A stretch of 51,009 nt of DNA from Spirochaetes bacterium GWE1_32_154 (GCA_001829315.1 MIAY01000006.1:1-51009); one strand, 5' to 3'. Positions 9,052 through 25,795 are shown, counted from the first letter of the stretch. The notes: generated by a model not told the origin, from the letters alone. Numbers and translations are program-made.

Positions 9052-9064
9052 AGGAGAAAATAGT

Positions 9065-9973: not shown

Positions 9974-9981
9974 TAAAAAAT

Positions 9982-10005
9982 AAAAGGGGACTTGAGCCCC
10001 TTTTT
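9982..10005 (+). terminator. Intrinsic terminator after the annealase gene
   Basis: AAAAGGGG and CCCCTTTTT form a hairpin with a short loop and a T-run just after the annealase stop. It may reduce readthrough into the SSB unit. Confidence 0.7.
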
Positions 10006-10029
10006 AAAATTCAAAAAAAGGGATGTTAT

Positions 10030-10194
10030 ATGAAAGTATTTTTTAAAAAAGGTGAGTATGTAAAACATAAAGGACAGGTGTATAAAGTTGTTAATGACAA
10101 TACAAATCAATCACTCATATATGCAAAAAATTTAAAATCAGGTGTAGATAGATTTTTATACATTTCAGAATTGGAGGTTATACCTCATGAGTAA
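10030..10194 (+). CDS. Small hypothetical phage protein
   Basis: A 54-residue protein, MKVFFKKGEYVKHKGQVYKVVND..., that looks like a small beta-barrel (KGEYVKHKGQVYKV is SH3/KOW-like in pattern). It overlaps the SSB start by 8 bases and contains that gene's ribosome-binding site (GGAGG). No family is assigned. Confidence 0.55.
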   Translation: MKVFFKKGEYVKHKGQVYKVVNDNTNQSLIYAKNLKSGVDRFLYISELEVIPHE

Positions 10195-10714
10195 AGATAC
10201 AAATAGTATTGTAATAATTGGAAGATTAGTTCGTGATCCTGAAATAAGATATACACCTTCAGGAACCGCTGTCTGTAAATTTTCCATTGCTAATGGTGAA
10301 ACAATTAAACAAAATAACGAATGGAAGGATTATACAAATTTCTTTGACGTTGTTGTTTTTGGAAATCAAGCGATTAATTGTGAAAAGTATTTAAAGAAAG
10401 GCTCAAAGATTAGTGTTGTAGGCTCAATTAAACAGAATAGATGGGAGGATAAAACAACAAATCAAGCAAGGTCAAAAGTTGATATACAATGCCGTGAGAT
10501 CATGTTTTTAACACCTGCAAACGACGGAAATAATCAAACATCAACAACGTCTGCAGAACCGGATAAACAACAGAAAATAGTAAATAAACCGGCTCAAAAA
10601 CCAAATAGAGAAGATAACAATGAGTATGTTCCTGATCCGTGGGCTGATGCAAGTGATACGTATGATTCTATTGAATGGCCAATGCAAAATGGCGATGATG
10701 ACATTCCGTTTTAA
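10187..10714 (+). CDS. ssb: Single-stranded DNA-binding protein
   Basis: A 175-residue protein. The N-terminal about 105 residues form the OB fold with standard SSB features (VIIGRLVRDPEIRYTPSGTAVCKFSIAN, WKDYTNFFDVVVFG, YLKKGSKISVVGSI). A disordered Gln/Asn/Pro linker follows, and the conserved acidic tip DDDIPF ends the protein. It binds single-stranded DNA during phage replication and recombination and recruits partners through the tip. GGAGG precedes the ATG inside the upstream gene. Confidence 0.95.
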   Translation: MSKDTNSIVIIGRLVRDPEIRYTPSGTAVCKFSIANGETIKQNNEWKDYTNFFDVVVFGNQAINCEKYLKKGSKISVVGSIKQNRWEDKTTNQARSKVDIQCREIMFLTPANDGNNQTSTTSAEPDKQQKIVNKPAQKPNREDNNEYVPDPWADASDTYDSIEWPMQNGDDDIPF

Positions 10715-10779
10715 TCGCAATCCTTTTTAAACAGGGATAATGGCCATTCGATTATTATATCGAAATATTTGGAGGTAAT

Positions 10780-11844
10780 ATGATAAAAAATAACGCTGAA
10801 TATTTTTCACATGATGCTACCATGAGAAATGACAGAAAGATTCTCGCCATTCGCAATAAATTTGGAATCACCGGTTATGCAATCTGGGTAATGATTCTTG
10901 AAGAATTGTGCATATCAGAAAATTTCAGATTAGAATATGACGACATTACTATTGAAACATTATCCGGTGATTTCAGAATTGAGCCTAAATTACTCAAGGA
11001 AATAATTGATTATTCATTTAAACTTAAACTCCTTTTTATAGAGGACGGATATTTATTCTCTCATAATTTTATATCAAGAATGCGACCACTGGAAGAAAAA
11101 AGACAAGCAAAAAGTGAAGCCGGTAAAAAAGGTATGAAAAGTAGATATAAAATTGATGATTCTGTTATAACACCCGATGATTCTGTTATAACAGAAAGCA
11201 GTTCTGTTATAACAACTACTAATTCTGTTATAACAGCGGATAACATAGTAGAGCATAGTATAGTAGAGCATAGTATAGTAAAGAAAAGCAACGACGCTCT
11301 TAATACACGTGAGTCGCTATTTTTTAAATTAAAAGAATCAGGACTTTCGGATAAACAGGCTCAATCAGTTATAAAAAATCATCATCCAGAAAAAATCATT
11401 GATAAAATCAATTTGACAAACTGGTTAATTATTAACAAGCCTGAAAAAGTCAAAAGTAAACCGGCATATCTTTACCAAGCCATTCTTGACGATTGGATTG
11501 ACGATGGGTATGAAAATCGAAATAATAAACCACCACCACCACCTGATAAGACAGAATTAAAGGTCCGGCGAATAATTCAGGAATATCAAAAATTAACCGG
11601 GATAAACAAAGATTTAAATCTTATTCGGGAAATTTTCGAGAAAAAATGCACTGAAAAAGACATTGATGTTATTACTGCTGTCATGCGAGAAATATATCTT
11701 GAGCCTGAATTGATTAACGATTTACCGCTTGAAACATTATTATCCGGTGACAGAATTAAAAACGAAGCCATAAAAATAAAAAAAAGCATAAGTCAGATAG
11801 ATGTCAGCTTTTTAAAAAACAATGAGATAGTTTTAAACGCTTAA
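10780..11844 (+). CDS. Phage replication initiator (DUF4373/Lin1244-type N-terminus) with internal origin
   Basis: A 354-residue protein with GGAGG before ATG 10780. Residues 6-110 match the DUF4373 (Lin1244/Lin1753-like) domain: EYFSHDATMRNDRKILAIRNKFGITGYAIWVMILEELC. Residues about 125-155 are a low-complexity linker in which SVIT recurs four times because the DNA there is iterated. The C-terminal part is helical with a Pro run (residues 247-251). By analogy with lambda O-type initiators, the N-terminal domain may bind the iterons embedded in its own gene and the C-terminal part may recruit helicase or its loader. Confidence 0.75.
   Translation: MIKNNAEYFSHDATMRNDRKILAIRNKFGITGYAIWVMILEELCISENFRLEYDDITIETLSGDFRIEPKLLKEIIDYSFKLKLLFIEDGYLFSHNFISRMRPLEEKRQAKSEAGKKGMKSRYKIDDSVITPDDSVITESSSVITTTNSVITADNIVEHSIVEHSIVKKSNDALNTRESLFFKLKESGLSDKQAQSVIKNHHPEKIIDKINLTNWLIINKPEKVKSKPAYLYQAILDDWIDDGYENRNNKPPPPPDKTELKVRRIIQEYQKLTGINKDLNLIREIFEKKCTEKDIDVITAVMREIYLEPELINDLPLETLLSGDRIKNEAIKIKKSISQIDVSFLKNNEIVLNA
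11160..11235 (+). repeat. Four iterons, candidate phage replication origin
   Basis: TTCTGTTATAACA occurs four times with no mismatch, at 11160-11172, 11181-11193, 11202-11214 and 11223-11235, at an exact 21-base period (two helical turns). Each copy contains the 10-bp palindrome TGTTATAACA. The location inside the initiator gene is the layout of lambdoid origins. Confidence 0.85.
11245..11280 (+). repeat. Tandem 15-bp repeat, candidate unwinding element
   Basis: ATAGTAGAGCATAGT is present twice in tandem (11245-11259, 11260-11274) and a third partial unit ATAGTA follows. It lies directly after the iterons, where an easily melted element would be expected. Confidence 0.6.
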
Positions 11845-11865
11845 ATCATGTCACTGGGAGGGGAA

Positions 11866-12150
11866 ATGATTAATAATTTTACAGCACCTGATAAAGTCAT
11901 GGATATTATTAAAATCGCTTCAAGCGTAGATTTAACTCTTAATCAAAAGATTCAGTATGTATCAACAGCCTATGCAGGAGAGGCGGTGTATTTTCCTCAA
12001 AGGACAGTTAAGGCCATTAGAAATGCTGAAATATTGCAAGATTATTATCAACACAAAATGACTGCAAAACAAATTGCAATAAAATTTTATATGTCAGAAA
12101 GCACCATTTTTGAAATTTTGAGAAAAGAAAAATATAAAATTGAGCCTTAA
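11866..12150 (+). CDS. Mor-family-like transcription activator
   Basis: A 94-residue protein. I start it at 11866, where GGGAGGGG sits 3-10 bases upstream; an ATG at 11848 lacks such a site. The segment GEAVYFPQRTVKAIRNAEILQDYYQHKMTAKQIAIKFYMSESTIFEILRKEK resembles the C-terminal half of Mor/C phage activators, a GG-x-YIP-like turn followed by a helix-turn-helix. It lies between replication and lysis genes, where a late-gene activator is expected. The assignment is by pattern, without a score. Confidence 0.6.
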   Translation: MINNFTAPDKVMDIIKIASSVDLTLNQKIQYVSTAYAGEAVYFPQRTVKAIRNAEILQDYYQHKMTAKQIAIKFYMSESTIFEILRKEKYKIEP

Positions 12151-12156
12151 TACTTA

Positions 12157-12191
12157 AAAACTATGAAAACCGATTTGATTTTCATAGTTTT
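12157..12191. terminator. Bidirectional hairpin before the lysis genes
   Basis: AAAACTATGAAAA (12157-12169) and TTTTCATAGTTTT (12179-12191) are perfectly complementary, 13 bp. It separates the Mor-like gene from the lysis module, so the late genes may have their own promoter or be reached by antitermination. Confidence 0.6.
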
Positions 12192-12220
12192 AAACTGCTA
12201 TTATATTTTTGAGGTGAAAT

Positions 12221-12475
12221 ATGTCAGACGAAAAAAAATTAAGCGAATTAGACCAAAAAAAGCCAACCGATGCTAAAAACCTGTCAAAATGGGGAATGGT
12301 ATTATCAGTTATAGTACAAACATTATGTACTGTAGGTCACATTATAGTTAAAAAAGATTTCCCTAATTTAGACACGCAAATAAGTATGTCTTTCTTTTCA
12401 TTATTTTTTACGATCCCATTCACACCAGTTTATGTAAATTTATTTTTAGATAAAATATTTGGAGGTAGAAAATGA
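12221..12475 (+). CDS. Putative holin
   Basis: An 84-residue protein with a charged N-terminus (about 22 residues, rich in Lys and Asp) and two hydrophobic stretches at about 26-45 and 56-78, ending in the basic tail GGRK. Size, topology and position before spanins and a lysin fit a two-helix holin that opens the inner membrane. Holins share little sequence, so this rests on context. GAGGTG precedes the ATG, and the end overlaps the next start as ATGA. Confidence 0.6.
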   Translation: MSDEKKLSELDQKKPTDAKNLSKWGMVLSVIVQTLCTVGHIIVKKDFPNLDTQISMSFFSLFFTIPFTPVYVNLFLDKIFGGRK

Positions 12476-12762
12476 GTGTAATTTTAATTTTAATAATTAT
12501 AATTGCTGTTTTGGTTTTTATTTATTCCGGGACTGTTTTTGGTTTTATTATGGCAATTAAAGCAAAAGACAGCAAAATTAAAATGCAATTTCAAGATATT
12601 AAATATCTTGAAAATGAGTTGATATCTGCTAACGGCAAAATTAAAGCATTAAATAAAATACAAAATATAACCGGTTTAGGAAAAGAAAATGAAGATATTA
12701 TTACAAAAATTCCTGTTGATACTTATAATCCTGACGGGTTGTTCCACCGTTTCAAAAGGTAA
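12472..12762 (+). CDS. Inner-membrane spanin subunit (Rz-like)
   Basis: A 96-residue protein with one N-terminal membrane helix (about residues 3-27) followed by a helical, coiled-coil-type region (KDSKIKMQFQDIKYLENELISANGKIKALNKI). This is the design of i-spanins, which span the periplasm and meet an outer-membrane lipoprotein to fuse the membranes at lysis. The next gene overlaps it by 74 bases in another frame and encodes a lipoprotein, as in Rz/Rz1 pairs. GGAGG precedes the start. Confidence 0.7.
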   Translation: MSVILILIIIIAVLVFIYSGTVFGFIMAIKAKDSKIKMQFQDIKYLENELISANGKIKALNKIQNITGLGKENEDIITKIPVDTYNPDGLFHRFKR

Positions 12763-12964
12763 TAGTTTAAGAACTGAACATATTGCAATGCCATCATATC
12801 CGTTAATGCTTGATGTTCAATTTAAGAAAAATGAAAACGGCTTTTCACTTACCGTACAGGATACTAAAAACCTCGATATTAACCTTGAAAGGCTCAATAC
12901 ATACATAAAATCATTGGAAGCAATAATCGATGGTTACAGGGGGCAAAATGCCGATTATAGATAA
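12689..12964 (+). CDS. Outer-membrane spanin lipoprotein (Rz1-like), overlapping the i-spanin
   Basis: A 91-residue protein whose first 17 residues form a lipoprotein signal ending in LTGC (lipidated Cys at 17). It begins inside the i-spanin gene in the +1 frame, an overlapping arrangement typical of o-spanins. The mature part (about 75 residues) is larger than lambda Rz1 and not Pro-rich. No clear ribosome-binding site is visible, so coupling to the upstream gene is likely. The pairing strongly implies a host with an outer membrane. Confidence 0.68.
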   Translation: MKILLQKFLLILIILTGCSTVSKGNSLRTEHIAMPSYPLMLDVQFKKNENGFSLTVQDTKNLDINLERLNTYIKSLEAIIDGYRGQNADYR

Positions 12965-13673
12965 TATCTATGCTCTCATTGCCACTATATTTGTCTGTAT
13001 GGTATTCTCAATGCTCATTGTATTTGCTATACGAAAACGCGTGTCTTTTAAGCTTTCAAGCGATGGTGTCGTATTAAATACTCCCGATGGTAAATATATT
13101 TCATCCGAAAGAAATTTCTTTATTTTTCAAGAAATAAGAAAACTGGATAAAGTCATTTATGATATTTCTGAAATACAGATACTCGATGAACAAATGACAT
13201 TTATTGAACGAGAGCTTGAACGGTATTACAAAGAGAATCTTGATCTCATTGTTAATAAAGCAGAATTAAGTATTGATAGTGACTTATACCGTAATTACCA
13301 ATTAATTTATATTCTTCATGAAGAAAAGATGAAAAAACAAATTAAGCGTATTTTAAAAGAAAATCACCTATGTGATAAGCCAGAATGGAATGCGTACAAA
13401 GAGCGACAGTTTGAATTTACATGGTCAAAGTCAATGGAGTATCTTGACAGTTATTTTGGCGTTATTCAAATTGAATCAAGAAAAATTATTACCGATCAGA
13501 TAAGAGCTTACTTAAAAAATGAATACAAAGTAAAGTTTCATTATTGGATGGATGAGTTTAGAAATATAACATCTGAAAAATTGAAGGAAGTTCAAAAGAC
13601 TCAGAATAAAATAGAAACTCTTCATTCTCAATTAGGGTACAACCATATTATCGAGGTTAAAAACAATGAATAA
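12948..13673 (+). CDS. Single-pass membrane protein in the lysis block, unknown
   Basis: A 241-residue protein. I start it at 12948 behind GGGGGC; an ATG six codons earlier is weaker. Residues about 7-25 form a membrane helix, followed by a long, charged, mostly helical region with many Glu/Lys and aromatic residues and no obvious domain. It overlaps the o-spanin end and the lysin start, so it is cotranscribed with lysis genes. A role at the envelope is likely but not specified. Confidence 0.55.
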   Translation: MPIIDNIYALIATIFVCMVFSMLIVFAIRKRVSFKLSSDGVVLNTPDGKYISSERNFFIFQEIRKLDKVIYDISEIQILDEQMTFIERELERYYKENLDLIVNKAELSIDSDLYRNYQLIYILHEEKMKKQIKRILKENHLCDKPEWNAYKERQFEFTWSKSMEYLDSYFGVIQIESRKIITDQIRAYLKNEYKVKFHYWMDEFRNITSEKLKEVQKTQNKIETLHSQLGYNHIIEVKNNE

Positions 13674-14136
13674 TAATAATACTATATATCCTGCTCCCGA
13701 TAAAGGAAGATACAGAAAATTCGGATTTAAGCTTGGAAACCTAACACACATTGGGCATGATTTTGATTGTCCAGAAGATACACCTGTCATTGCAATTGCT
13801 GATGGTATGGTAGTTGATAATAAAATGATCAATGGTTTTGGCAGTATGAATCCACACACTAATGGAGGTGTTTTATTTATCAAACATATTGATAAAAACG
13901 GTCACTATTTTATCGGGCTTTACGGGCATGTTAAGTCTAAACTTCAAAAGGGAATAATTGTAAGAAAAGGGGATATCATAGGAAGTATAATAGAATTTTA
14001 TAATTCTAATTTATATCTTCCTCACTTGCATTTTGGTATTTATATCAGCAATGAAATACCACAAGCACCTTATGGGTACACATCTAATATTGATAAGTGG
14101 GTTAATCCAATTGAGTTTTTGAAAACAAGGATATAA
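13666..14136 (+). CDS. M23-family peptidase, probable endolysin
   Basis: A 156-residue single-domain protein with the M23 (LytM) zinc-site pattern. GHDFD near residue 30 gives the first His/Asp ligands, HLHFG near residue 124 gives the His-x-His, and LYGHV near residue 86 fits the conserved H of the active site. M23 enzymes cut peptide cross-bridges in the cell wall. There is no signal peptide, so it would leave through the holin. Its position after holin and spanins and before terminase supports a phage lysin. Confidence 0.82.
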   Translation: MNNNNTIYPAPDKGRYRKFGFKLGNLTHIGHDFDCPEDTPVIAIADGMVVDNKMINGFGSMNPHTNGGVLFIKHIDKNGHYFIGLYGHVKSKLQKGIIVRKGDIIGSIIEFYNSNLYLPHLHFGIYISNEIPQAPYGYTSNIDKWVNPIEFLKTRI

Positions 14137-14141
14137 CAATA

Positions 14142-14735
14142 ATGGCATATACTCAAGAACAATGGGAGCAAGTACAAAGTGATTTCGTACAGGGAATTAT
14201 TGAGAATGGGAAACTAATATACCCATCTTTTAATCAGCTTTCAATTTCTTATAAAATATCAAAATCAACCATGTCCGTTCGTGCAAAAAAAGAAAAGTGG
14301 GAAGAAAAAAAAGAGATATATCAAAATAAAATAGCGTCAAAGCATGATAAAATCATACGAACAAAAATAGAACAAATAGAACACGAATCGAACAAAACGA
14401 ACGCCCTCAGTACTAAGTGGGCTGAGTTTGATTTAAAGTGTCTTGAGCTTGCAAACAATGCTCTTGACCTATGCAAAATGGATATTGAAGCACTCAAAGA
14501 ATTCAAAGACACATACGATTCATTATCAGATGAATCAAAATTACAAATTCAAAAATATACACCGCTTGCACTAAAACACTTAGCAGAAGCCATAGAAAAA
14601 TACCAGAAAATTGGTAAGAATGCGGTCGGTGAGACTCTTGCAAATAACGATAAACCTCAGCAAAACATAACTATCAATACTATAAACGATGATAATTTAT
14701 TTTCAAGGCTCAATGGTGGAGTCAATGAACAATGA
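14142..14735 (+). CDS. Terminase small subunit
   Basis: A 197-residue protein. The N-terminal segment PSFNQLSISYKISKSTMSVRAKKEKWEEKKEIYQNKI is a helix-turn-helix with the RA-x-KEKW-x-EKK signature common to small terminases. A long helical oligomerisation region follows. It recognises phage DNA and delivers it to the large subunit. It overlaps the large-subunit gene by about 11 bases. The start ATG 14142 has only a weak upstream ribosome-binding site (AAGGATATAACAAT). Confidence 0.78.
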   Translation: MAYTQEQWEQVQSDFVQGIIENGKLIYPSFNQLSISYKISKSTMSVRAKKEKWEEKKEIYQNKIASKHDKIIRTKIEQIEHESNKTNALSTKWAEFDLKCLELANNALDLCKMDIEALKEFKDTYDSLSDESKLQIQKYTPLALKHLAEAIEKYQKIGKNAVGETLANNDKPQQNITINTINDDNLFSRLNGGVNEQ

Positions 14736-16197
14736 TGAATACCGGGAGTTATTGATTGAAGCCTCAAGGCGTGATTTTTGGACTTTCTGCCAAACAATGC
14801 ATCATTACAAAAAAGAATGGTTTCATATCAAAATGTTATGTACTGTTCTCCAGGCTTTTTGGCAAGGTGCATTGAGCCGAAAAGAAGGAAAACAATTCAA
14901 ACGTCTTATTATCAATGAGCCTCCACGACATTTTAAATCAAGAACAATGGTTTTATTTTCAGCATGGTTATTCGGTCATAGGCCTAAAGAAAAGTTATTT
15001 GTTGCTTCATATTCAGAGTCTCTTGCAACAGATTTTTCAAGATATGTTCGTGATGAAATAAGCCAAATTAGAACTTCATATGATGATATTGTTTATGAGG
15101 ATGTTTTCCCAAATACAAAATTAAAGTATGGCAATAAATCATTCAAACAATGGGCGTTAGAAGGTTCTTTTTTTTCATATAAGGGATGCGGTGTTGGCAC
15201 AGGTGTTACCGGTCGAGGTTGTACCGTTGCTATAATTGACGATATTATAAAATCCTATGAAGAAGTTGTTAATGAAGCAGCACTTGAAAAAAAATGGGAG
15301 TGGTATAAAAATACATGGCGGTCCCGATATGAGAAAGGGGCACTTGAAATTATTATAATGACTCGATGGTCAAGAAATGATTTATGCGGAAAATTGCTTG
15401 ACGGTAAAGAACCATATCGGATTGATACATTAAAAAAATGTGGTAAGATTTTATATTATGATGACACCGTTGTTTTACAGCAAGAAGTATTCGATGGTGA
15501 AAATATGCTTTGTGAAGATATGCTTGATCACAACAGCTATATCGATATTATGAATACAGTTGACCCGCCAATATTCAAAGCAAACTATCACAATGAATTA
15601 GTTGACATAAAAGGTCGACTGTATGAATACTTTAATGAATACGATGAATTACCAAAACCGACTCATCGTAAATGTGGTTTTATTGATATTGCCGACAAGG
15701 GCGGTGATTATGTATGTGGTATCTTTGGTGAGATAGTTAATAAAAAAGGATATATAAAAGATATTGTTTACAATAAACAGGGTATTGAATATTCAATTGA
15801 ATTATGTGCAAGAGCAATTATCAATAATGATATCATTGAAACTGTTATTGAAAATAATTATGGCGGTTCTTCATTTCCTTTGTTGTTAAAAAATGTAATT
15901 GGAAAATTATGTAAAGAGAAAGGGATTGTTAATAAATATGTCATACAAGAGATATCCCAAAGAGGTAATAAACTTGCCAGAATAATCACGAATGCCCCGA
16001 TTGTTTCAGCAAGGCTTTATTTCAATAAAAATTGGAAGTATAAACACCGGGAGTTTTATAACCATGTTACTACGTTTCAAAGGGAAGGAAAAAACAAGCA
16101 TGATGATGCAGAAGACGCTATGACCGGATTTGTTGAATCGTTTATACTTGTTTCTAATGCACCGTCAGTAACTTCAGGAAGAATAGAGGGGCTTTAA
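14725..16197 (+). CDS. Terminase large subunit
   Basis: A 490-residue protein. I start it at 14725 behind GGTGGAG; the frame is open 12 codons further upstream. The ATPase domain has a Walker-A-like EPPRHFKSR (65-73) and Walker B VAIIDDI (about 168-174), followed by the coupling motif TRWSRNDL (about 213-220). The C-terminal nuclease domain shows acidic residues in GFIDIADKGGDYVCG and in KHDDAEDA near the end, with ENNYGG between. It packages DNA into a prohead. Normally a portal gene follows; here the next gene is the convergent integrase. Confidence 0.9.
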   Translation: MNNDEYRELLIEASRRDFWTFCQTMHHYKKEWFHIKMLCTVLQAFWQGALSRKEGKQFKRLIINEPPRHFKSRTMVLFSAWLFGHRPKEKLFVASYSESLATDFSRYVRDEISQIRTSYDDIVYEDVFPNTKLKYGNKSFKQWALEGSFFSYKGCGVGTGVTGRGCTVAIIDDIIKSYEEVVNEAALEKKWEWYKNTWRSRYEKGALEIIIMTRWSRNDLCGKLLDGKEPYRIDTLKKCGKILYYDDTVVLQQEVFDGENMLCEDMLDHNSYIDIMNTVDPPIFKANYHNELVDIKGRLYEYFNEYDELPKPTHRKCGFIDIADKGGDYVCGIFGEIVNKKGYIKDIVYNKQGIEYSIELCARAIINNDIIETVIENNYGGSSFPLLLKNVIGKLCKEKGIVNKYVIQEISQRGNKLARIITNAPIVSARLYFNKNWKYKHREFYNHVTTFQREGKNKHDDAEDAMTGFVESFILVSNAPSVTSGRIEGL

Positions 16198-16210
16198 CCC
16201 CTCTTTTTTT
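16185..16210. terminator. Terminator between terminase and integrase
   Basis: AGAGGGG (16185-16191) pairs with CCCCTCT (16198-16204) and is followed by seven T. It overlaps the terminase stop codon. No late gene follows. Confidence 0.8.
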
Positions 16211-17303
16211 ATTCTTTCTCTGGAAAGGCTTTTTCGACTAATGCCTGATAATGTTTGGTATTTCTGTTAACATAATGTTTTAGTGCAACCTCAGGGTTAT
16301 TGCCTGCTTGTTTTGAAACAAAATGAATATCATTAGTTGAATTGAGTTGATCGGTTACCGCGGTATGCCTGAAAGCGTACAGGATATAGTCCTTTGGCAG
16401 GTTCATTTCAACTTTTAATTTTTGAAATTGTTTTGAGTAAAACTCATCGCCTTTGGTACCGCCAATAAATAAAAATCCTGATGTTATCCCGGTTCTTTCA
16501 AGGTGTTTTTTTAACATCTCAAAATATATATCCGGTAAATATGTTTCTTTTGTTTCTTTTACTTTATTCATGAATATTTTAACGGTTTTATTTTTTTCGT
16601 CAAAATCTTCAAGTTTAATGATTCTTGCTTCATTTGGTCTTGAAACGGTATAATAAAGCGTTGTAATGTAGAATGAAAAATCATAATTACCTTTACTTTC
16701 AATAAAATCAATTATCCTTTTAAAATCATCCTCAGCAATAACAGTTTGACGCCCTACCCTTTTTATTTTTGGAAAATCTAAGCATTGATAGAGATCACGA
16801 GAAAACAAACCCCTTTTAATACAATTATTTATAAATGATTTTACTTCACGAATAAGCGTCTCCATGGTTGCATTTGCATAATCCTTATTATCAATAAATA
16901 ATTTATCAAGGTTATCTTGATTGAGGTCATTAAAAGTAAGAATACCATGCTTAATAAATTTTTGAAGCGTCCAATTTTTTGTATAAAGATTATTTGCAGA
17001 ATGACCTTTTGCCGAGCATGTAATAATATACTTATTATAAGCGTCAATTAAATCATTATTTATTTCTTTTATCTCTTTTTCAACATTTCTTTCTTTTACA
17101 ATAGGTTTAACAATCGTTTCAACATTTCTTTTTGATGTTGTAATTCTTGCAATTGACCTTTGATTTACTAATGATAAAAGAAAATTATTATAAATTTCTT
17201 GAGCTAATGATTTATTTTTTGTCTTTGTTGTTAACTTTGTGATTTGTCCGTTTTGAGACACTTTGATGTAATAATATCCGTTTTTTTCCATGTATAACCC
17301 CAT
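16209..17303 (-). CDS. int: Tyrosine-recombinase phage integrase
   Basis: A 364-residue protein with an N-terminal arm-binding-type region (GYYYIKVSQNGQITKLTTKTKN), a core-binding domain and a C-terminal catalytic domain. Visible catalytic elements are the first Arg in SRPNEARI, the Arg-His of AFRHTAV and the nucleophile Tyr in ALKHYV. The usual His two residues before that Arg-His box is Tyr here, and the usual GH(S/T) is GNNP, so the active site deviates from the textbook pattern. It faces tRNA-Leu 113 bases away, the likely attachment site. GGAG precedes the start. Confidence 0.9.
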   Translation of the reverse strand: MGLYMEKNGYYYIKVSQNGQITKLTTKTKNKSLAQEIYNNFLLSLVNQRSIARITTSKRNVETIVKPIVKERNVEKEIKEINNDLIDAYNKYIITCSAKGHSANNLYTKNWTLQKFIKHGILTFNDLNQDNLDKLFIDNKDYANATMETLIREVKSFINNCIKRGLFSRDLYQCLDFPKIKRVGRQTVIAEDDFKRIIDFIESKGNYDFSFYITTLYYTVSRPNEARIIKLEDFDEKNKTVKIFMNKVKETKETYLPDIYFEMLKKHLERTGITSGFLFIGGTKGDEFYSKQFQKLKVEMNLPKDYILYAFRHTAVTDQLNSTNDIHFVSKQAGNNPEVALKHYVNRNTKHYQALVEKAFPEKE

Positions 17304-17350: not shown

Positions 17351-17416
17351 TGGTTTATTGCTGATTATGAAGTTGTGTAAATCATGGTATTAAAACAAGT
17401 TATAACATTAAAAAAC

Positions 17417-17500
17417 TGCCGGTGGTCGGAGTCGAACCGACACGAAGTTACCCTCACAAGATTTTGAGTCTAGCACGTCTACCAATTCCATCACACCGGC
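17417..17500 (-). tRNA. tRNA-Leu (CAA anticodon)
   Basis: An 84-nt class II tRNA on the minus strand with acceptor GCCGGTG/CACCGGC, a D-loop GGTAGAC, anticodon loop CTCAAAA giving anticodon CAA, a long variable arm, and the T-loop GTTCGACTC. CCA is not encoded; a T-run follows the discriminator base. The anticodon stem appears to hold one U-U mismatch (CUAGA against UCUUG). The 3' end points toward the integrase, consistent with integration into the tRNA 3' end. Confidence 0.92.
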
Positions 17501-17595
17501 ATAGAGTCTGCAATCTACCAGAAAATATCATTCAAGTCAATATTTTTATTTACTTTTTGCATGAGCCTCTATAACTATTTCAAACTTTAGTGTAT

Positions 17596-17713
17596 GAGGC
17601 TCTTGTAAAAATCAAGAGTACTTGATTTTGCTTCCGCAATATGCGATTATATCGCATTAGAGGGAGCTTCTTGCAAAAATTCGAGATAAAAAAGGTGTTT
17701 TTACAAGAAGCTC
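17596..17713 (+). repeat. Dispersed about 120-bp palindromic repeat, copy A
   Basis: It begins GAGGCTC, contains TCAAGAGTACTTGA, a central ATGCGATTATATCGCAT palindrome, and ends in a hairpin TTGCAAAAATTCGAGATAAAAA... TTTTTACAAGAAGCTC. It is closely similar to copies B (21915) and C (45827, inverted). A further GAGCCTC at 17563 gives an extra inverted half. It is non-coding and lies upstream of the patatin gene. Confidence 0.8.
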
Positions 17714-17738
17714 GTATTATAATTATGTGGAGGTTGCT

Positions 17739-19025
17739 ATGAAGTCATATGCATTAGTTCTGGGTGGCGGTGGTGCGAAGGGCATTTATCAAATCGGAGT
17801 CTGGAAAGCATTGCGTGAACTTGGTATTAAATTCCATGCAGTCATTGGAACTTCAATAGGCTCTATCAATGGGTGCCTGATAATACAGGGAAATTTTGAA
17901 AAAGCAATGGAATTCTGGTCTGGTATCGAATTAAACACAGCTTTAAATATTCCTGATGAAATGATTTCAAATGGGAAGTTTATTATTAACACCGAGAATA
18001 TTGATAAACTTGTTACTTTACAAAAAGATATTATTAAAAATCGCGGAGTAGATACAACCCCTCTGGTTGGTTTACTTAATCAATATATCAGTGAAGAAAA
18101 AATCAGAAAGTCTAAAACAGATTTCGGCCTTGTCTCATTTAACGCGTCTAATCTTCGACCTTTTGAAATATTCAAAGAACACATCCCGAAAGGAGAACTC
18201 ATTCATTATATTATGGCATCATCTGCTCTACCGGGACTAAAACAAATTACTATTAATGGTAATTTTATGTTGGATGGTGGAATAGCGAATGTTGTACCGT
18301 ATGATCTTGCCCGTAAAAGAGGATATAAGAAAATCATTGTTGTTGATGTTTCAGGTCCTGGAAAATATAGAGTACCACATATTGTCGGTACTGAAACAAT
18401 TTATATAAAAAATTCATCTGATTTGGGTAGTATTATAGAAACAGATAAAAAAATTTATATGAAAAACTTTACAATGGGTTATATGGATACTATGAAAACA
18501 TTTAATAAATATTCCGGACATGTGTATACCTATGTAAATAATACAGCATTAAAAAGCAAAATTAACAAATATATCAAAGAACATGAAACTCAAATAATAA
18601 ATACTATTACTCAACATAACTCTAAAATTTCACATTTACACCAATTATTCCCTAAAAGATTTGCTTATGATAAAGACTTTGCCGGAATTGCTTCTGAATG
18701 TGCAGGAATAGTGGTAAAAATCCCGACTGACACTTTATATGATTATGAAGATTTTATTAATAGAATAAAACAATTATATAATGAACTTATGTTAAAAAAG
18801 AAAAATTATGAGGATACTGTAGTTACTGATCTACTTTTAAGAGTAATTCGTAATAAAATAAATTTATTTAATTTATCGGTTATGGAGTATGATTTTGCAT
18901 TATCATTTTTATTTTCAGCTGAAAAAATAAAAAAATGGATTCCCGGTGAAAATCTTTCTTTAATTATTGAAGAATTATACGGTGCACGATTATTTTTTTA
19001 TTTAGTGGATAAAGATGTTATTTAA
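17739..19025 (+). CDS. Patatin-like phospholipase
   Basis: A 428-residue protein with the patatin fold in its first about 200 residues: oxyanion loop GGGGAKG (9-15), nucleophile S39 in GTSIG, and catalytic D179 in DGG. It is expected to hydrolyse acyl esters of phospholipids. The C-terminal half (about 200-428) is helical and not recognised. The start is ATG 17739 with GGAGG 6 bases upstream; the frame extends back to a GTG without support. No signal peptide is visible, so it is probably cytoplasmic. The repeat copy A lies upstream. Confidence 0.88.
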   Translation: MKSYALVLGGGGAKGIYQIGVWKALRELGIKFHAVIGTSIGSINGCLIIQGNFEKAMEFWSGIELNTALNIPDEMISNGKFIINTENIDKLVTLQKDIIKNRGVDTTPLVGLLNQYISEEKIRKSKTDFGLVSFNASNLRPFEIFKEHIPKGELIHYIMASSALPGLKQITINGNFMLDGGIANVVPYDLARKRGYKKIIVVDVSGPGKYRVPHIVGTETIYIKNSSDLGSIIETDKKIYMKNFTMGYMDTMKTFNKYSGHVYTYVNNTALKSKINKYIKEHETQIINTITQHNSKISHLHQLFPKRFAYDKDFAGIASECAGIVVKIPTDTLYDYEDFINRIKQLYNELMLKKKNYEDTVVTDLLLRVIRNKINLFNLSVMEYDFALSFLFSAEKIKKWIPGENLSLIIEELYGARLFFYLVDKDVI

Positions 19026-19058: not shown

Positions 19059-19087
19059 TTGACTGTTTATTAGTATATGAGTATATT
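19059..19087 (+). promoter_or_regulatory. Promoter of the radical SAM/methyltransferase locus
   Basis: TTGACT (19059-19064) and TATATT (19082-19087) are separated by exactly 17 bases. The start point would be near 19094, giving a very short leader before ATG 19109. The -10 region is embedded in a TATAT-rich near-palindrome that could bind a regulator. Confidence 0.65.
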
Positions 19088-19108
19088 AGAATATATAAGG
19101 AATCAATA

Positions 19109-19804
19109 ATGAGTCAAAACGGATGTCTTGTTTGCGGGGGTTTTTTAGAATACGGAAAACTTGAAAAACATACATGTTTATTCTGTGGTAAAGAGTTTGA
19201 AGCAGAAGTTTCATGTGTACATAAACATTATATATGTGATCATTGTCATTCAAGTGAAGCGGTTGAAATTCTTGAAAAATTTATAGCTGTTACTGAGTTA
19301 AAGGATCCAATACAAATGGCGGATATTATTATGCATCATCCATCATTTAAAATGCACGGAACCGAACATCATTATCTGGTACCGGCAGTTTTGGTTAAAT
19401 CAATACAAAACTCAGGGTATGAAGTGAATAATTTATTTTTTAATATAGTTAAAGCTCGTGGAAGTTCGTTACCCGGAGGAACCTGCGGATATTGGGGAGC
19501 ATGTGCTACAGCAATCGGTTGTGGAATATCTTCTGCTATTTATTTAAAAACAAGTCCGTTAAGTACAGATAATTATTCTTTAGTACATTCATTTACTGCT
19601 GATGCGATAAATGAAATAGCTAAAAAGCCCGGTCCCCGATGTTGTAAAAGAAATACCTATACAAGTATTTTAGCGGGAATTAAATCGTTTAAAAAGTATA
19701 CAGATATTGAAATACAAGCAAGTACACCGGTTTGTTCTTTTTTTAAAGACAATAATGAATGTCTCGGTTTAGAATGTCCATATTTTCCCGGAGCAAACAA
19801 ATGA
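19109..19804 (+). CDS. Cys-rich DUF5714-like protein
   Basis: A 231-residue protein. The N-terminal 46 residues hold CxxC pairs (C6/C9, C23/C26, C43/C46) plus C36, a double zinc-ribbon pattern. The body matches what I recall as DUF5714: HHPSFKMHGTEHHYLVPAVLV and GGTCGYWGACATAIGCGISSAI, later GPRCCKRNT, and CSFFKDNNECLGLECPYF at the end. Conserved Cys and His throughout suggest metal or thiol chemistry; no biochemical function is known to me. It is the first gene after a good promoter and overlaps the methyltransferase start as ATGA. Confidence 0.7.
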   Translation: MSQNGCLVCGGFLEYGKLEKHTCLFCGKEFEAEVSCVHKHYICDHCHSSEAVEILEKFIAVTELKDPIQMADIIMHHPSFKMHGTEHHYLVPAVLVKSIQNSGYEVNNLFFNIVKARGSSLPGGTCGYWGACATAIGCGISSAIYLKTSPLSTDNYSLVHSFTADAINEIAKKPGPRCCKRNTYTSILAGIKSFKKYTDIEIQASTPVCSFFKDNNECLGLECPYFPGANK

Positions 19805-20409
19805 ATGAAACTATAATTGAACGATATACAAAAGAAGTGAAATCTGAAAGTTTAGGTTGCACAATAATAGATCCATACATTATACTTAATACTAATGATG
19901 CAATTTTAGAATTAGGTTCAGGAAACGGTAATTTTGCTGCACGGTTATCTGATACATATGACAGTTCTATACGGATAACCGGTGTCGATCTAACTCCGGC
20001 TATGGTTTTAAAAGCAAACATGGTGAATAAAAGAGATAATATATCCTATATGTGCTCTGATATTGTACATATACCTTTAGCTGATAGTGGTTTTAATGTA
20101 ATCGTCAGTAACTGCGTTATCAATCACATTGCTGATAAAGAAGCTGTGTACAGAGAAATATATAGATTATTAAAAAATGACGGGTATTTTCTCGTTGGTG
20201 ACATAGTTTCAGTGGGATGGCTTCCCGATGAAGTGAGAAATGATCCGAGCGCTATTGCCGATTGCTATGGCGGAGCAATACCGGAAGACATATATTTAGA
20301 AAGTATTAAAAAAGCAGGTTTTAATACAATTGAAATTATTTCAAGAAGACAGTATGAAAAAAATGGCTTTCCAATAGAAAGTCTTTTAATAAAAGGAGTT
20401 AAAAAATGA
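19801..20409 (+). CDS. Class I SAM methyltransferase, ArsM-like
   Basis: A 202-residue protein with motif I ILELGSGNG (35-43), GVDLTPAMV (61-69), and SNCVINHIADKEAVYREIYRLLKNDGYFLVGDIV (103-136). The SNCVIN and D-C-x-GGAI-x-ED (C155) features recall arsenite methyltransferase (ArsM) and its relatives, which methylate a thiol-bound metalloid. It is shorter than ArsM and lacks the long C-terminus. The substrate here could be a metalloid, a small molecule or the adjacent peptide. ATG 19801 overlaps the upstream stop, and its own stop overlaps the peptide start as ATGA. Confidence 0.75.
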   Translation: MNETIIERYTKEVKSESLGCTIIDPYIILNTNDAILELGSGNGNFAARLSDTYDSSIRITGVDLTPAMVLKANMVNKRDNISYMCSDIVHIPLADSGFNVIVSNCVINHIADKEAVYREIYRLLKNDGYFLVGDIVSVGWLPDEVRNDPSAIADCYGGAIPEDIYLESIKKAGFNTIEIISRRQYEKNGFPIESLLIKGVKK

Positions 20410-20525
20410 AATCAGTTACTAAAGTAAACATTAAGAAGAATCAGGTTTGTTGTTCTACAGCAGACAGTTCTGTTGCACAATGTTGCAGTAAAAACACAAA
20501 AATTGTTGCAGGTTGCCACGATTAA
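20406..20525 (+). CDS. 39-residue Cys-rich peptide, candidate modified-peptide precursor
   Basis: MKSVTKVNIKKNQ leads into a Cys-patterned tail. Cysteines lie at 15, 16, 26, 27 and 37, so the motif CCS recurs with an exact 11-residue period and a third single Cys follows at the same step. The start overlaps the methyltransferase stop (ATGA) and AAAGGAG lies 6 bases upstream, a strong coupled site. A basic leader-like part followed by a Cys-periodic core, directly before a radical SAM/SPASM enzyme, is the layout of ribosomally made, post-translationally modified peptides. A small metal-binding protein is the alternative. Confidence 0.72.
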   Translation: MKSVTKVNIKKNQVCCSTADSSVAQCCSKNTKIVAGCHD

Positions 20526-20534
20526 TTTCTTACC

Positions 20535-20563
20535 CCGTAGAGGTATTTCAAATACCTCTACGG
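20535..20563 (+). promoter_or_regulatory. Strong stem-loop between peptide gene and radical SAM gene
   Basis: CCGTAGAGGTATTT (20535-20548) is fully complementary to 20550-20563, so a stem of about 12-13 bp with a tiny loop forms. No T-run follows on either strand, so it is probably not a plain terminator. Its position could stabilise or limit the upstream transcript and raise peptide over enzyme. Confidence 0.65.
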
Positions 20564-20597
20564 TTGTAAAAAAAACTATACTACGTAAGGATATAGA

Positions 20598-21944
20598 ATG
20601 TATAAATCAAGATATAATTTAATAACACCAATAGATTCTGAAAATAATGCTGTTTTTAATCCATTGTCAGGTGCTTTTGACATTGCAGATAATGAAACGG
20701 TAAAACGGTTTACTGATGGTAAACCACTTGATGATGATGAACAGGAATACTGGTTTACCCGGGGGTATTTTTTCGGAACAGCAGAAGAAGAACAGAATTA
20801 CATTGAAAAAAGATATAATGATTTTAATGAAGAAGTTAACAAAAGTGAAGTTCAATTTGTTTTTGTACCAACATATTCATGTAATTTTTCATGCGGATAT
20901 TGCTACCAGAAAGGAGTAGACCGTTCTGTTGCCTATCCTTCACATGAGTTAATTGACAATATGGTTGATTATATGGTCAATTTTCGAAAAGAAAATAAAC
21001 GTGATGTATATCTTACCCTTTTTGGCGGTGAACCGTTACAGAACAAAAAAGAAAACTATGACATGATGGAATACCTGGTAAAAAAATTAACTGATAATTC
21101 AATCGGTTTTGCAGTTGTAACCAATGCCTATAATCTGACAAAATACATAAAAATTCTTGAAAAAGGAATTATCCGTGAAATACACATCTCATTAGACGGT
21201 GACAAAGAAGTTCATAATAAACGAAGAAAAACCGGTCAGGATGCAAACACTTTCGATGCGATTATGGAAGGTATAACAAAAGCTGTTTCATTATTTATCC
21301 CGATTAATATACGAATGATTATTGATAAAGAAACGATAGAGACATTACCGTTATTAGCTGAAAGACTTGATAAAGCAGGTTTCCTCGACTTACCGAAAAC
21401 AAGATTTAAGACGTCACTCGGCAGAAATTACGAGTTAATAAATGAATACATGAAACCCGGTGATTTATTTACTTTAGATGAAATGTATAGGGTATATACT
21501 GATTTACTCATGAAACATCCAATACTTAAGAAACTTCATATTCCATCGTATTTTGGAATATCACATATGGTCGACAAGGGTGAAATGTATATTCCTGATT
21601 TTGATTCATGCCCCGCATTTAAAAGTGAAATGGCATTTGATTATTCAGGCGGTATTTATAGCTGTACAGCAAGTGTTGGTAGAGAAGATTACAAGGTTGG
21701 TACTTTTTACCCTGAGTTGTATATTGATGATCAAAAAACAGCTGACTGGAAAAAACGATCAATACTCACTATCCCGGAATGCAAAGATTGTTCTGTTGGT
21801 GTTGTATGTGGTGGCGGATGTGGAGTTATTGCAAAACAAAAAAACGGAACTGTATTATCACCGGATTGTAAACCGGTTAAAAAGGTTATGGATTATGGAA
21901 TACAATTTTATGCGGAGGCTCTTACAAAAATCAAGAGTACTTGA
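20598..21944 (+). CDS. Radical SAM/SPASM peptide-maturase-type enzyme
   Basis: A 448-residue protein. The N-terminal about 85 residues (NLITPIDSENNAVFNPLSGAFDI) resemble the peptide-recognition start of SPASM maturases. The radical SAM cluster is C95-x3-C99-x2-C102 with GGEP at 143-146. SPASM-type auxiliary-cluster cysteines are C338, C356, C395, C398, C404, C408 and C424 (CKDCSVGVVCGGGC). Such enzymes use radical chemistry to cross-link or otherwise modify Cys-containing peptides. AAGGA precedes the start. The last ten residues (AEALTKIKST) and the stop lie inside repeat copy B, so the native end was replaced by the repeat. Confidence 0.85.
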   Translation: MYKSRYNLITPIDSENNAVFNPLSGAFDIADNETVKRFTDGKPLDDDEQEYWFTRGYFFGTAEEEQNYIEKRYNDFNEEVNKSEVQFVFVPTYSCNFSCGYCYQKGVDRSVAYPSHELIDNMVDYMVNFRKENKRDVYLTLFGGEPLQNKKENYDMMEYLVKKLTDNSIGFAVVTNAYNLTKYIKILEKGIIREIHISLDGDKEVHNKRRKTGQDANTFDAIMEGITKAVSLFIPINIRMIIDKETIETLPLLAERLDKAGFLDLPKTRFKTSLGRNYELINEYMKPGDLFTLDEMYRVYTDLLMKHPILKKLHIPSYFGISHMVDKGEMYIPDFDSCPAFKSEMAFDYSGGIYSCTASVGREDYKVGTFYPELYIDDQKTADWKKRSILTIPECKDCSVGVVCGGGCGVIAKQKNGTVLSPDCKPVKKVMDYGIQFYAEALTKIKST

Positions 21945-22031
21945 TTTTTATTACGCCACATGCAATATAATTGCATTAGAAGTAGCTTCTTGCAAAAATT
22001 CGAGATAAAAAATGTATTTTTGCAAGAAGCT
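21915..22031 (+). repeat. Dispersed about 120-bp palindromic repeat, copy B
   Basis: It has the same layout as copy A: GAGGCTC, TCAAGAGTACTTGA, a central ATGCAATATAATTGCAT, and the terminal TTGCAAAAATTCGAGATAAAAA... TTTTTGCAAGAAGCT hairpin. It starts within the radical SAM coding sequence and supplies its stop codon (TGA inside GTACTTGA). It also occupies the gap before the thioredoxin fusion gene. Confidence 0.8.
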
Positions 22032-22075
22032 TTGCGGAAAAGTTATTACATTATTAGAATATGAGGAGAAATAAA

Positions 22076-23350
22076 ATGGTAAAAGAAATTAATAGTAGTG
22101 ATTATGAAGAACTGGTTTTAAATGCAAATGGTGGTGTCGTAGTTGATTTTTATTCAACAGAATGTCCTCCTTGTGAAGCATTACATTCTAAGTATGAATT
22201 CTTCGCAAATCTATATGGAAGTGAAATAAAATTCTACACAATTCACAGACAAGGTAATAAAGAACTTGCTGTTAAAAATGGAGTATCTTCAAGCCCTACC
22301 CTTTTATTTTATAAAAACGGTAAAGAAGTAGCGCCAAGAATGAATGGAGCAATAAAGAAAAGTGTATTAAAAAAAGTTCTTATAGAAACGTATAATTTAA
22401 AAGACAAATCAAGCGGTATTGAGCGAAAAGAATATTCGTATGATCTTGTGATAATAGGTGCAGGTCCAGCCGGTCTCACTGCCGGTTTGTATGCAGGTCA
22501 GGCAAAAATTAAAACTCTTATAATCGATCAGGCACTACCGGGCGGTCAGGTTAATGTAACACATTCTGTAGCCAATTATCCCGGAACCGGCGAGAAAATA
22601 AATGGTTATATGCTTATGCACAAATTAACCGAACAAGTTAAAGAGGCGAATGTTGATTTTTTTAACGCTTCTGAAATTATTTCGTTAGATTTAGAGAATA
22701 AAGTTATTTTAGTGGATGATGATAAAAAAGTTACTGCAAAGGCAATAATTCTTGCAACCGGAGCAACTCCTCGAAAACTTGGGTTACCCGGTGAAGAGAC
22801 CTATGCAGGAAAAGGTATATCATATTGTGCAACCTGTGACGGAAAATTCTATGAAGGAAAAGATATTTATGTAATCGGCGGAGGTAACAGTGCTGTAGAA
22901 GAAGCATTATTTTTAACAACCTTTGTTAATTCATTAACTATAATTCATCAATTTGATGAGTTCCAGGCAAACAAAACAGCGAGTGATGAAGCACTTGAAA
23001 ATCCTAAGATAAAAGTTCTCTGGTCACATGAACCTCGTGGTTTTTATGGAAACGGAACTTTTAAATATCTTGAAGTTGAAAATCTGAAAACGAAAGAAAC
23101 AATAAAACTTGAAAATGGATCGGGAGTGTTTGTATTTATCGGGTACGTTCCGCAAACCGAACTTTTTGCCGGGAAATTAAATATGGATAAATGGGGATAT
23201 ATTAGCGCTCAGGAAGATATGTCAACTAATATACCGGGTGTATATGTTGCCGGTGATGTCCGAAGTAAACTCTATCGACAAATAACAACTGCAGTAAGTG
23301 ACGGAACAATTGCATCTTTATCCGCACAAAAATATTTAAAGAATAAATAA
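22076..23350 (+). CDS. Thioredoxin-thioredoxin reductase fusion
   Basis: A 424-residue protein. Residues 1-105 are a thioredoxin domain with active site C30-P-P-C33. Residues 120-424 are a low-molecular-weight thioredoxin reductase with FAD motif GAGPAG (128-133), redox pair C251-A-T-C254, GGGNSA (268-273) and a C-terminal FAD motif VYVAGDVRSK. The NADPH-selecting arginines (usually HRR-x3-R after the second Gly motif) are replaced by HQFDEFQ, so NADPH use is doubtful. I start it at 22076 behind GAGGAG rather than five codons earlier. It probably supplies thiol reducing power to the upstream system. Confidence 0.88.
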   Translation: MVKEINSSDYEELVLNANGGVVVDFYSTECPPCEALHSKYEFFANLYGSEIKFYTIHRQGNKELAVKNGVSSSPTLLFYKNGKEVAPRMNGAIKKSVLKKVLIETYNLKDKSSGIERKEYSYDLVIIGAGPAGLTAGLYAGQAKIKTLIIDQALPGGQVNVTHSVANYPGTGEKINGYMLMHKLTEQVKEANVDFFNASEIISLDLENKVILVDDDKKVTAKAIILATGATPRKLGLPGEETYAGKGISYCATCDGKFYEGKDIYVIGGGNSAVEEALFLTTFVNSLTIIHQFDEFQANKTASDEALENPKIKVLWSHEPRGFYGNGTFKYLEVENLKTKETIKLENGSGVFVFIGYVPQTELFAGKLNMDKWGYISAQEDMSTNIPGVYVAGDVRSKLYRQITTAVSDGTIASLSAQKYLKNK

Positions 23351-23384
23351 TTGATCATATAGCACCTCTGTACTAAAAAGAGAT

Positions 23385-23421
23385 AAAAAAAGGATGAAAA
23401 TAGTATTTTCATCCTTTTTTT
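23385..23421 (+). terminator. Strong intrinsic terminator
   Basis: An A-run with GGATGAAAA pairs with TTTTCATCC plus a seven-T run around a 5-base loop. It closes the locus that begins at 19059. Confidence 0.85.
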
Positions 23422-23533
23422 AATGAAGCCCTGGTAATTTGTACATAAAAAATTTATTATGAAACATAAATTGTCGATATATTAGTGAGCCTCAAGCACA
23501 AATAAATTTTACGATAAAGGACAAACGATTATT

Positions 23534-25795
23534 ATGGTGAGAAAAAACAAAAAAGAAAAAATCACTCCTTTGAAGTTAAACAATCAGACAAGTACCAATA
23601 AATCAAAAAAAAGAAAATCATTACGAATCTCAATTATTACATTTTTTGTTTCGTTATTTTTAATTTCTCAAGTAACTTTATGTTTTTTTATCATACTAGT
23701 CTTAAATAAAGCAACAAATGATCAAATTAAAAACTATCATGATAAATCTATCAATGATACAAAAAAACTACTTGAAGACACAACTAATATGGCAATTAAT
23801 ACTGTTGAAACAATATATAATGAATTTTTATTACAAAAAACAAAATATTCCGGGAATAATACAGATTATAGCATTATTCTCGAAAAAGAATATCAGAATA
23901 AGGCACTGGCTCTTTTACGTTCATATCGTTTTAGTGGTGTAAATGGATATTTTTATGTATATGATTATGATGGTAATAATATTGCCCATCCGATACAACC
24001 TCAATTAGAAGGGCAAAATCTGTGGGAAATGAAAGATCCCAATGGTGTAATGGTAATTCAGGAATTAATAAATGTTGCAAAAAGCGGTGGCGGATTTGTT
24101 AATTTTATATGGAATAAACCTGAAATCAGTAAAGAAGTTGATAAAATAGGATACGCTGAAGGTTTTGATAAGTGGTTATGGATGATCGGAACCGGTTTGT
24201 ATATTGATGATATTGAAAATGAAATAATTCAATACAAAGCTCAATCACTTAAAATTAATACTAATTTAATTATTATTTATATTTTGATTAACTTATTATT
24301 TATAGTTTTTTCAGTGATTCTTACATTTTATTTTATAAAAAGAATGATTACCTCTCCACTTAATGATTTAATTTACAAAGCGGATGTTATCAGTAACGGT
24401 GATTTAACAGTAGCATTTACATTTAAACAGGAAAATGAACTTGGAGATCTCGTTAATTCGTTTAAAAAAATGGTTGTTACTTTGAAAGACTTAAATCAAA
24501 AAATCTATGTTGCCGTAACAATCTTAACAAAAAATTTACGAACTTTATATATTTCATCATCCAAAGTAAAAGATGCAGCTAACACACAAGCCGTAACTGT
24601 TGAAGAAACACAGGGAAACTTTGAAAACCTCAACAAAATGGTTGAAACTATTTCTACCGAATCTGCTAAAGCAGATAAATATGCGGTAATTGCTCTTGAA
24701 AAAGCTCAAGTCGGTATGGTTTCAATGGATAAACTTGAAAAAGAAATGACAAAGATCGAAACAAGTTCGCAGGAAATTACTGATATTATCGGTATGATAA
24801 ATGAAATCGCCGAACAGACAAATTTGTTATCATTAAATGCGTCTATTGAGTCTGCAAGAGCCGGTGAAGCAGGAAAAGGTTTTAATATAGTTGCCGGTGA
24901 AATTAGAAAACTTGCTGAAAAATCAACTCAGGCTGCTAACAGAATTCATAAATTGATCACCAATAACAATTCAATTATTCAGGAAGGTGTTCGCTATTCA
25001 AAGGAAACAACAAATATATTAAAAGAAATATCAACATCAAATGAGTTAATCTCTGGACTTGTAAAAACGATTTCTGAAGAAATCCATAAAGTTAAATTCA
25101 GTTCATCTGAAATTTTACAGGCAATTGACCATATTTCAAATATTGCACAGGATAACCTGACAGAAAGTGAGAACGTTTCGTCAACGATGAAAGACTTTGT
25201 TGATCAAACACTTGAGCTTCAAAAGTTTGTCGGTTTATTTGATGTTAGAACTGAAAAAGCAAAAGAAAATCATAAACATATAGAGGATTTGTTGCGAGCG
25301 AAATTAACAGAAGCAAATACAATTCTTAATGAATTTGGCGGAAAGATTCTACCAACCGGAAATACTGTTTTTGTTGATAAATTTAAACTCAATGAATTAC
25401 AAATCGGAAAAACACAACTTACAAACAGTACTATTATTGTTGATGCGATTTCCCAAAGAACCAATGCTTCTGTTACTTTCTTTCAGCCACTTGATAATGA
25501 TTTAATACGAGTTGCAACAACCGTACGAAACTTTGATGATTCAAGAGCGATAGGAACTACTATTTCTGAAACAAGCCCTGTATATCAAACAGTTATGGTT
25601 CGGGGACAAATATATTTCGGTCGTGCATTTGTTGTTAACCGATGGTATGTTGCTGTATATAAACCGATTAAAGATGAAACTGGTTTTATTACCGGTGTTA
25701 TTTATCTTGGTTTACCTGAAACGATGGAAGAAGATGAAAAATACGCCGAAAATGTTGGTATTGTTAAAAATACAACTTTTAAGTCGATACAATAA
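23534..25795 (+). CDS. Methyl-accepting chemotaxis protein with an extra C-terminal Cache-like domain
   Basis: A 753-residue protein with membrane helices at about 35-60 and 245-270 that enclose a periplasmic Cache-type sensor ([32 protein letters not shown]). A HAMP domain and a signalling domain with the hairpin core [41 protein letters not shown] follow. After the signalling helices, residues about 600-740 ([32 protein letters not shown]... [19 protein letters not shown]) form a second Cache-like module that should be cytoplasmic. It would feed CheA/CheW. No CheA/CheW gene is nearby. Confidence 0.88.

Follow-up and report, generated by a model that had tools for sequence, protein, structure and literature searches.

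Among the described systems, SCIFF/ranthipeptide systems such as those of CteB and PapB come closest to the locus presented here. In these, the gene for a small Cys precursor adjoins that for a radical S-adenosylmethionine (SAM) maturase of the SPASM type, which has two auxiliary cluster sites and an N-terminal domain like the recognition element (RRE) of ribosomally synthesized and post-translationally modified peptides (RiPPs), and no conserved exporter belongs to the set. Ranthipeptides are marked by a thioether that links the sulfur of a Cys to a non-alpha carbon. PapB tolerates Cys-Xn-Asp arrangements with n of 0-6 (PMC9413430). A further point of comparison is the arsenite methyltransferase AS3MT, in which As(III) is bound by C61, C156 and C206 and the N-terminal C32 acts as the resolving residue, the disulfide formed being reduced by thioredoxin (PMC9013690). 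A stretch of 51,009 nucleotides from Spirochaetes bacterium GWE1_32_154 (GCA_001829315.1; MIAY01000006.1:1-51009), referred to in the following as the window, carries at positions 19059-23421 an operon for a Cys peptide, a radical SAM enzyme (rSAM), an ArsM-like methyltransferase (MT) and a thioredoxin-thioredoxin reductase (Trx-TrxR) fusion. Judged from its sequence, the locus represents an unnamed system of peptide and maturase, conserved and co-inherited, to which an ArsM-like enzyme and a reductase also belong. A RiPP-like core is well supported. This core works like that of ranthipeptide/SCIFF systems, and on the features tested the locus falls outside the strict SCIFF, CefB and ArsM equivalogs.

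All five genes of the operon lie on the plus strand. The first encodes a DUF5714 protein of 231 residues (19109-19804; Pfam PF18978, E 9e-55), the second a minimal ArsM-like SAM methyltransferase of 202 residues with C20, C105 and C155 (19801-20409; NF008823, 143 bits), and the third the 39-residue Cys precursor peptide MKSVTKVNIKKNQVCCSTADSSVAQCCSKNTKIVAGCHD (20406-20525), assigned by its conserved C-terminal motif and its co-occurrence with rSAM. They are followed by genes for the predicted radical SAM/SPASM peptide maturase of 448 residues with an RRE-like N-terminal domain (20598-21944; cluster Cys and AlphaFold2 (AF2) model) and for the Trx-TrxR fusion of 424 residues with CPPC and CATC motifs (22076-23350; Pfam Thioredoxin and Pyr_redox_2). 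An original prediction, made from the DNA alone, had described this set, and every gene of it was recovered from the sequence and the list of open reading frames (ORFs), as were two ATGA-coupled junctions, DUF5714/MT at 19801-19804 and MT/peptide at 20406-20409. The fused thiol reductase was borne out as well: CPPC and CATC are conserved across homologues, both domains have a CxxC and both folds are represented by Pfam. The closest named relatives of the window rSAM are metagenome-assembled genomes (MAGs) of Spirochaetes.

As judged from its codons, the peptide is encoded by a real conserved gene under protein-level selection, with synonymous change left free. A total of 97 distinct DNA variants, differing synonymously in their codons, encode A-[Q]-C-C-[AST]-K-x6-G-C-H-[D/N]-stop. 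The invariant residues (97/97 variants; numbered from the C-terminus) are A(-16), C(-14), C(-13), K(-11), G(-4), C(-3) and H(-2); the search had preset CC, K, GCH and D/N, and had not preset A(-16), found in 97/97, or S/T(-9), found in 95/97. Q(-15) occurs in 96/97 variants and was preset only for loci recruited by a DNA pattern. The C-terminal core of 16 residues is nearly invariant and its distance from the stop is constant, and the part upstream of it is short, basic and mostly begins with MK[SAP][LVI][TV]. Peptide lengths amount to about 27-53 residues with 3-6 Cys, mostly 3-5, some leader lengths being uncertain because starts were picked by a script. The 11-residue Cys period noticed originally is present in the window copy but is not conserved. 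A second, N-terminal CC pair is found in only 41/97 variants and the conserved portion is the C-terminal CC-x9-C, so that the period is incidental. A clostridial subgroup with an rSAM-DUF5714 fusion has a peptide ending in GCHN (L048, L052, L054 and L055, plus a tail in L056). For loci seemingly devoid of the peptide, selenocysteine was considered and rejected, since read-through of TGA gave no selenocysteine, and the GCHN-ending variant was found instead.

Pfam, NCBIfam and PHROGs have no curated family that includes the peptide, and rSAM scores below every family cut-off, in line with the expectation that the set would match no named pathway. Membership of the peptide in the ArsD-related VcpD family was discarded, as the match was at chance level only (best E 0.097, 4/11 members). 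A literature search did not retrieve the peptide motif, which atlases of rSAM RiPPs may still describe, and it returned nothing on DUF5714 or on SPASM combined with ArsM and RiPP.

The peptide occurs much more often than chance would allow: its degenerate DNA pattern, CARTGYTGY-N3-AAR-N18-GGNTGYCAYGAYTRR, was detected in 37/393 Spirochaetota genomes and the reversed pattern, used as a control, in 0/393. The rSAM profile (E<=1e-40) was found in 40 of these 393 genomes, 36 of which had peptide and rSAM together. Similarly, in the Bacillota class of Paradesulfitobacterium the peptide was present in 17/83 genomes and rSAM in 18/83, with 17 having both and the extra one containing an rSAM fragment. 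Fisher p values for co-occurrence were 3e-45 (393 genomes) and 9e-17 (83 genomes), and they overstate the association because genomes are related. Four Spirochaetota genomes had rSAM only, comprising one partial match and three weak full-length matches from a single genus, and the one genome with the peptide only is 75% complete. Among 60 relatives, the 11 with a close rSAM homologue were the same 11 that had the peptide pattern.

When 80 rSAM loci from named genomes were inspected, 70 had a CC...GCHD-stop ORF, four the GCHN variant and one the tail at a contig end, and for one further locus the peptide was encoded elsewhere in the same genome. The adjacent Cys peptide that the original prediction called for is therefore present at at least 76/80 rSAM loci or in their genomes, and co-inheritance of peptide and rSAM, proposed there as a test together with gene fusion, was equally observed. 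As a query, the single rSAM of the window gave no contig matches; an alignment of ten orthologues led to 382 relatives. One genome of a Desulfitobacteriia-type class (G414) has two differing peptide copies on contigs C6 and C17, only one of which adjoins rSAM.

Clustering of the neighbours of 81 loci gave rSAM in 75, MT in 70 and TrxR-like proteins in 69, the next commonest neighbour being found in 11. The usual gene order is MT-peptide-rSAM-TrxR, and it extends across at least eight phyla, with loci in Bacillota, Bacteroidota, Spirochaetota, Myxococcota, Margulisbacteria, Fibrobacterota, Bdellovibrionota and Firestonebacteria, which are mainly lineages known for anaerobes. Many loci come from MAGs and some from isolates. 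Carriers include Thermoanaerobacterium saccharolyticum, T. butyriciformans, Carboxydothermus islandicus and Paradesulfitobacterium ferrireducens, and as named strains carry the system, it is testable. In the rSAM tree Bacillota form one group and Bacteroidota another, so that recent wide transfer is not obvious. The conserved neighbourhood of the loci contains no conserved exporter, protease or immunity gene. A scan of 108 neighbours revealed DUF1847 (5), Trx (4), ArsR-family (4), MarR (4), ArsP_1 permease (3) and DUF302 (3) proteins; those of the ArsR and ArsP type, though few, lean toward thiophilic metals or metalloids.

The window rSAM had been described as a SPASM enzyme with seven auxiliary Cys, and CX3CX2C plus seven further Cys are indeed conserved in homologues, these ten cluster Cys being kept in 72-85 of 85 aligned rows, with the remainder mostly gaps. 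None of the NCBIfam maturase models was reached at its cut-off, the nearest being those of CefB, TIGR04463 and PapB; the best one, CefB NF038107, gave 141.7 bits versus a cut-off of 600, and the SCIFF maturase model TIGR03974 gave 80 bits versus 425. The AF2 model of rSAM has a predicted local distance difference test (pLDDT) value of 82.8, with about 90 for an N-terminal domain of three strands and three helices, and segment 405-423 of the SPASM part is poorly modelled. Its best PDB matches by Foldseek were CteB (5why/5wgg, E about 1e-17), anSME, SuiB, ChlB and TigE, which are peptide- or protein-modifying enzymes; the match spans the length of CteB, along which the rSAM profile aligns likewise. 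According to the model, the N-terminal domain is of the RRE-like, peptide-binding type. SCIFF peptides differ from the present ones in having six Cys in about 45 residues, whereas here the end AQCC[AS]K...GCH[DN] is fixed and mostly 3-5 Cys are found. Also, MT and Trx-TrxR are additional to what SCIFF and PapB systems contain, rSAM lies far under the cut-offs of the SCIFF and PapB models, and in contrast to CefB/CefA (Cys-every-fifth) the peptide does not show Cys-every-fifth spacing.

In the methyltransferase (METHYLTRANSFERASE), C20, C105 and C155 are conserved in 69-70/74 sequences; in the alignment they correspond to positions 72, 174 and 224 of crystallised ArsM (4fr0/4kw7). The ArsM-like motifs reported for this protein thus hold up, in that all three As(III)-binding Cys of ArsM/AS3MT are kept, together with the SNCVIN signature of these SAM methyltransferases. 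However, MT differs from ArsM in being only 202 residues long and in reaching 143 bits versus the cut-off of 263 for NF008823.

DUF5714 belongs to the set in the window, as predicted, but is optional rather than core. It occurs in about a quarter of the loci, 11 having it beside the core and 11 clostridial ones fused as the C-terminal part of rSAM, and this fusion gives DUF5714 a functional context. Invariant features are a zinc-ribbon-like N-terminal Cys/His cluster and HGxEHH and CCK motifs. The AF2 model (pLDDT 92.8, predicted template modelling score 0.90) resembles no solved fold in the PDB. A Fe-S lyase related to serine dehydratase or cysteine desulfidase was considered and rejected, the fold match to CyuA being weak (TM 0.33), the profile comparison unsupportive and the SDH alignment rough. 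DUF5714 is probably a metal-binding protein. MbdU (NF045648), which is given as a metal-binding double selenoprotein (PMC13188914), shares with it the zinc-ribbon-like and DUF5714 regions (128.8 bits versus a cut-off of 600), a likeness at the level of family model and protein features. In contrast to MbdU with its two selenocysteines, the present protein has none, is shorter and is encoded by a Cys-only ORF.

That the peptide is the substrate of rSAM appears very likely. The best explanation overall, to which we give about an even chance, is that an intracellular, rSAM-modified Cys peptide serves the minimal ArsM-like MT and is recycled by Trx-TrxR. In such a scheme, rSAM would bind the short basic leader via its RRE-like domain and modify the core AQCC[AS]K...GCH[D/N]; the likeliest modification would be a thioether that links one Cys with a non-Cys residue close by, and C37 and D39 are one candidate pair. 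The modified peptide, present in excess over the enzyme, would retain free thiols and would either carry a thiophilic metalloid, with As(III) as first choice, to MT or supply the resolving thiol that MT is missing, one peptide thiol then standing in place of C32 of AS3MT. MT might hold the element via C20, C105 and C155 and then methylate it, Trx-TrxR would reduce the resulting disulfides with NADPH, and DUF5714 may assist rSAM or may load or accept metal. Binding of a metal or metalloid, cross-link and methylation are suggested by the enzyme families and the conserved residues. The system is probably located inside the cell. Handling of metalloids or organometals as its purpose is a serious candidate, which we rate slightly below even. 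Only tentatively do we propose the full statement that the modified peptide acts as metalloid carrier for, or as redox partner to, a minimal MT of the arsenite type, and is hence a RiPP for intracellular metalloid/organometal chemistry in anaerobes of many phyla. If the link to ArsM is true, RiPP chemistry would be joined to metalloid methylation. A near-invariant peptide end that is accompanied by one maturase, one MT and one reductase in at least eight phyla points to a basic unnamed function, and with this peptide a SCIFF-like rSAM enzyme gains a well-defined candidate for its substrate, a matter also at issue for SCIFF peptides.

Several points weigh against this scheme. The evidence for it comes from sequences and models. 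MT has no N-terminal resolving Cys, none preceding C20, and is devoid of the C-terminal domain of ArsM; ArsM-like folds methylate other substrates too; and metalloid detoxification has no obvious need of a ribosomal peptide, because ordinary ArsM uses its own Cys. Neighbours of the ars type are few, and in most loci the core has no adjoining metal resistance gene. The GCHN end, found in a few loci, speaks against the side chain of the C-terminal Asp being strictly required. PQQ and mycofactocin are cofactors derived from precursor peptides, and the peptide might similarly give rise to a small cofactor or metallophore, being cross-linked by rSAM, methylated by MT at a thiol, carboxylate or carbon and kept reduced by Trx-TrxR, in which case the ArsM-like Cys of MT would hold peptide thiols or a metal and not arsenic. 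The near-invariance of the 16-residue core at its fixed distance from the stop fits this proposal, as do the scarcity of metal-resistance neighbours, the position of the MT gene, which nearly always adjoins that of the peptide and here overlaps it by ATGA, and the fact that a methyltransferase encoded next to an rSAM maturase commonly acts on the peptide. However, neither a protease nor further tailoring genes belong to the conserved set and MT keeps all three As(III)-ligand Cys, and we regard a cofactor or metallophore as possible though rather unlikely.

An unmodified, metallothionein-like thiol carrier for MT is improbable in our view. The short leader, the Trx-TrxR partner and the small number of conserved residues besides Cys, Lys, His and Asp would suit a carrier, and rSAM would then target, for example, MT or the thioredoxin domain; yet rSAM, with its RRE-like domain, belongs by type to the peptide maturases and is tightly linked to the peptide. 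The resemblance of rSAM to maturases of ranthipeptides (PapB and CefB, for example) could also suggest an exported ranthipeptide, a signal or a bacteriocin, but a transporter, a peptidase and an immunity gene are missing from the conserved neighbourhood and the core, unlike those of bacteriocins, is nearly invariant across phyla, which makes export very improbable.

A second strong hairpin, absent from the original prediction, lies between the peptide and rSAM genes on the plus strand (about 20535-20563; z -5.1). When the 80 nucleotides 3' of the peptide stop were compared with shuffled sequences, 58% of the loci had z<-2 (median z -2.4); the corresponding shares were 10-15% for the MT and rSAM genes (p 4e-9 and 1e-12) and 30% for TrxR, behind which a terminator is to be expected. 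Between loci, the stems show no relationship in sequence. The hairpin is a probable attenuator or 3'-stabiliser; this would fit attenuation or protection of the mRNA, and therefore the production of more peptide than maturase.

Upstream of the first gene, a sigma-70-like sequence (TTGACT-17-TATATT; 19059-19087, plus strand) had been called a good promoter. It does match at 10/12 positions, but such matches are not in excess in the region (38 observed versus 36.8 expected from shuffles), and since comparable ones are equally common in shuffled sequence, it is only a plausible promoter of the operon. In contrast, the closing terminator is strong, as had been stated, with a terminator-like hairpin at 23384-23422 (strand not assigned; z -5.35). 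A copy of a dispersed palindromic repeat lies between the rSAM and TrxR genes (21985-22035, strand not assigned) and is probably not part of the system. This element, CTTCTTGCAAAAATTCGAG..., has about 72 copies in the genome at <=1 mismatch (reversed control 0), and those in the window lie at 17667-17688, 21986-22007 and 45852-45873 (-).

Directly upstream of the operon, a patatin-like phospholipase (17727-19025) weakly matches an anti-phage phospholipase model. A prophage-like block (about 1-17303) encodes an antirepressor KilAC, RecT, a Lin1244-like protein and a terminal phage-type integrase, which adjoins tRNA-Leu (17416-17501); the operon starts about 1.6 kb past this tRNA, and a search for an att repeat of the block gave no clear one. 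On the other side, a chemoreceptor (MCP) gene (23534-25795) encodes an additional Cache domain at the C-terminus, which is unusual. An MCP adjoins the cluster in six loci (window plus L032, L035, L036, L038 and L066), and it was rejected as a component of the system, the sensor domains being unrelated among the six. Farther downstream, an Eco57I-type restriction-modification methylase and, beyond it, a full B12-dependent methionine synthase are encoded (33103-35997 and 39148-42798).

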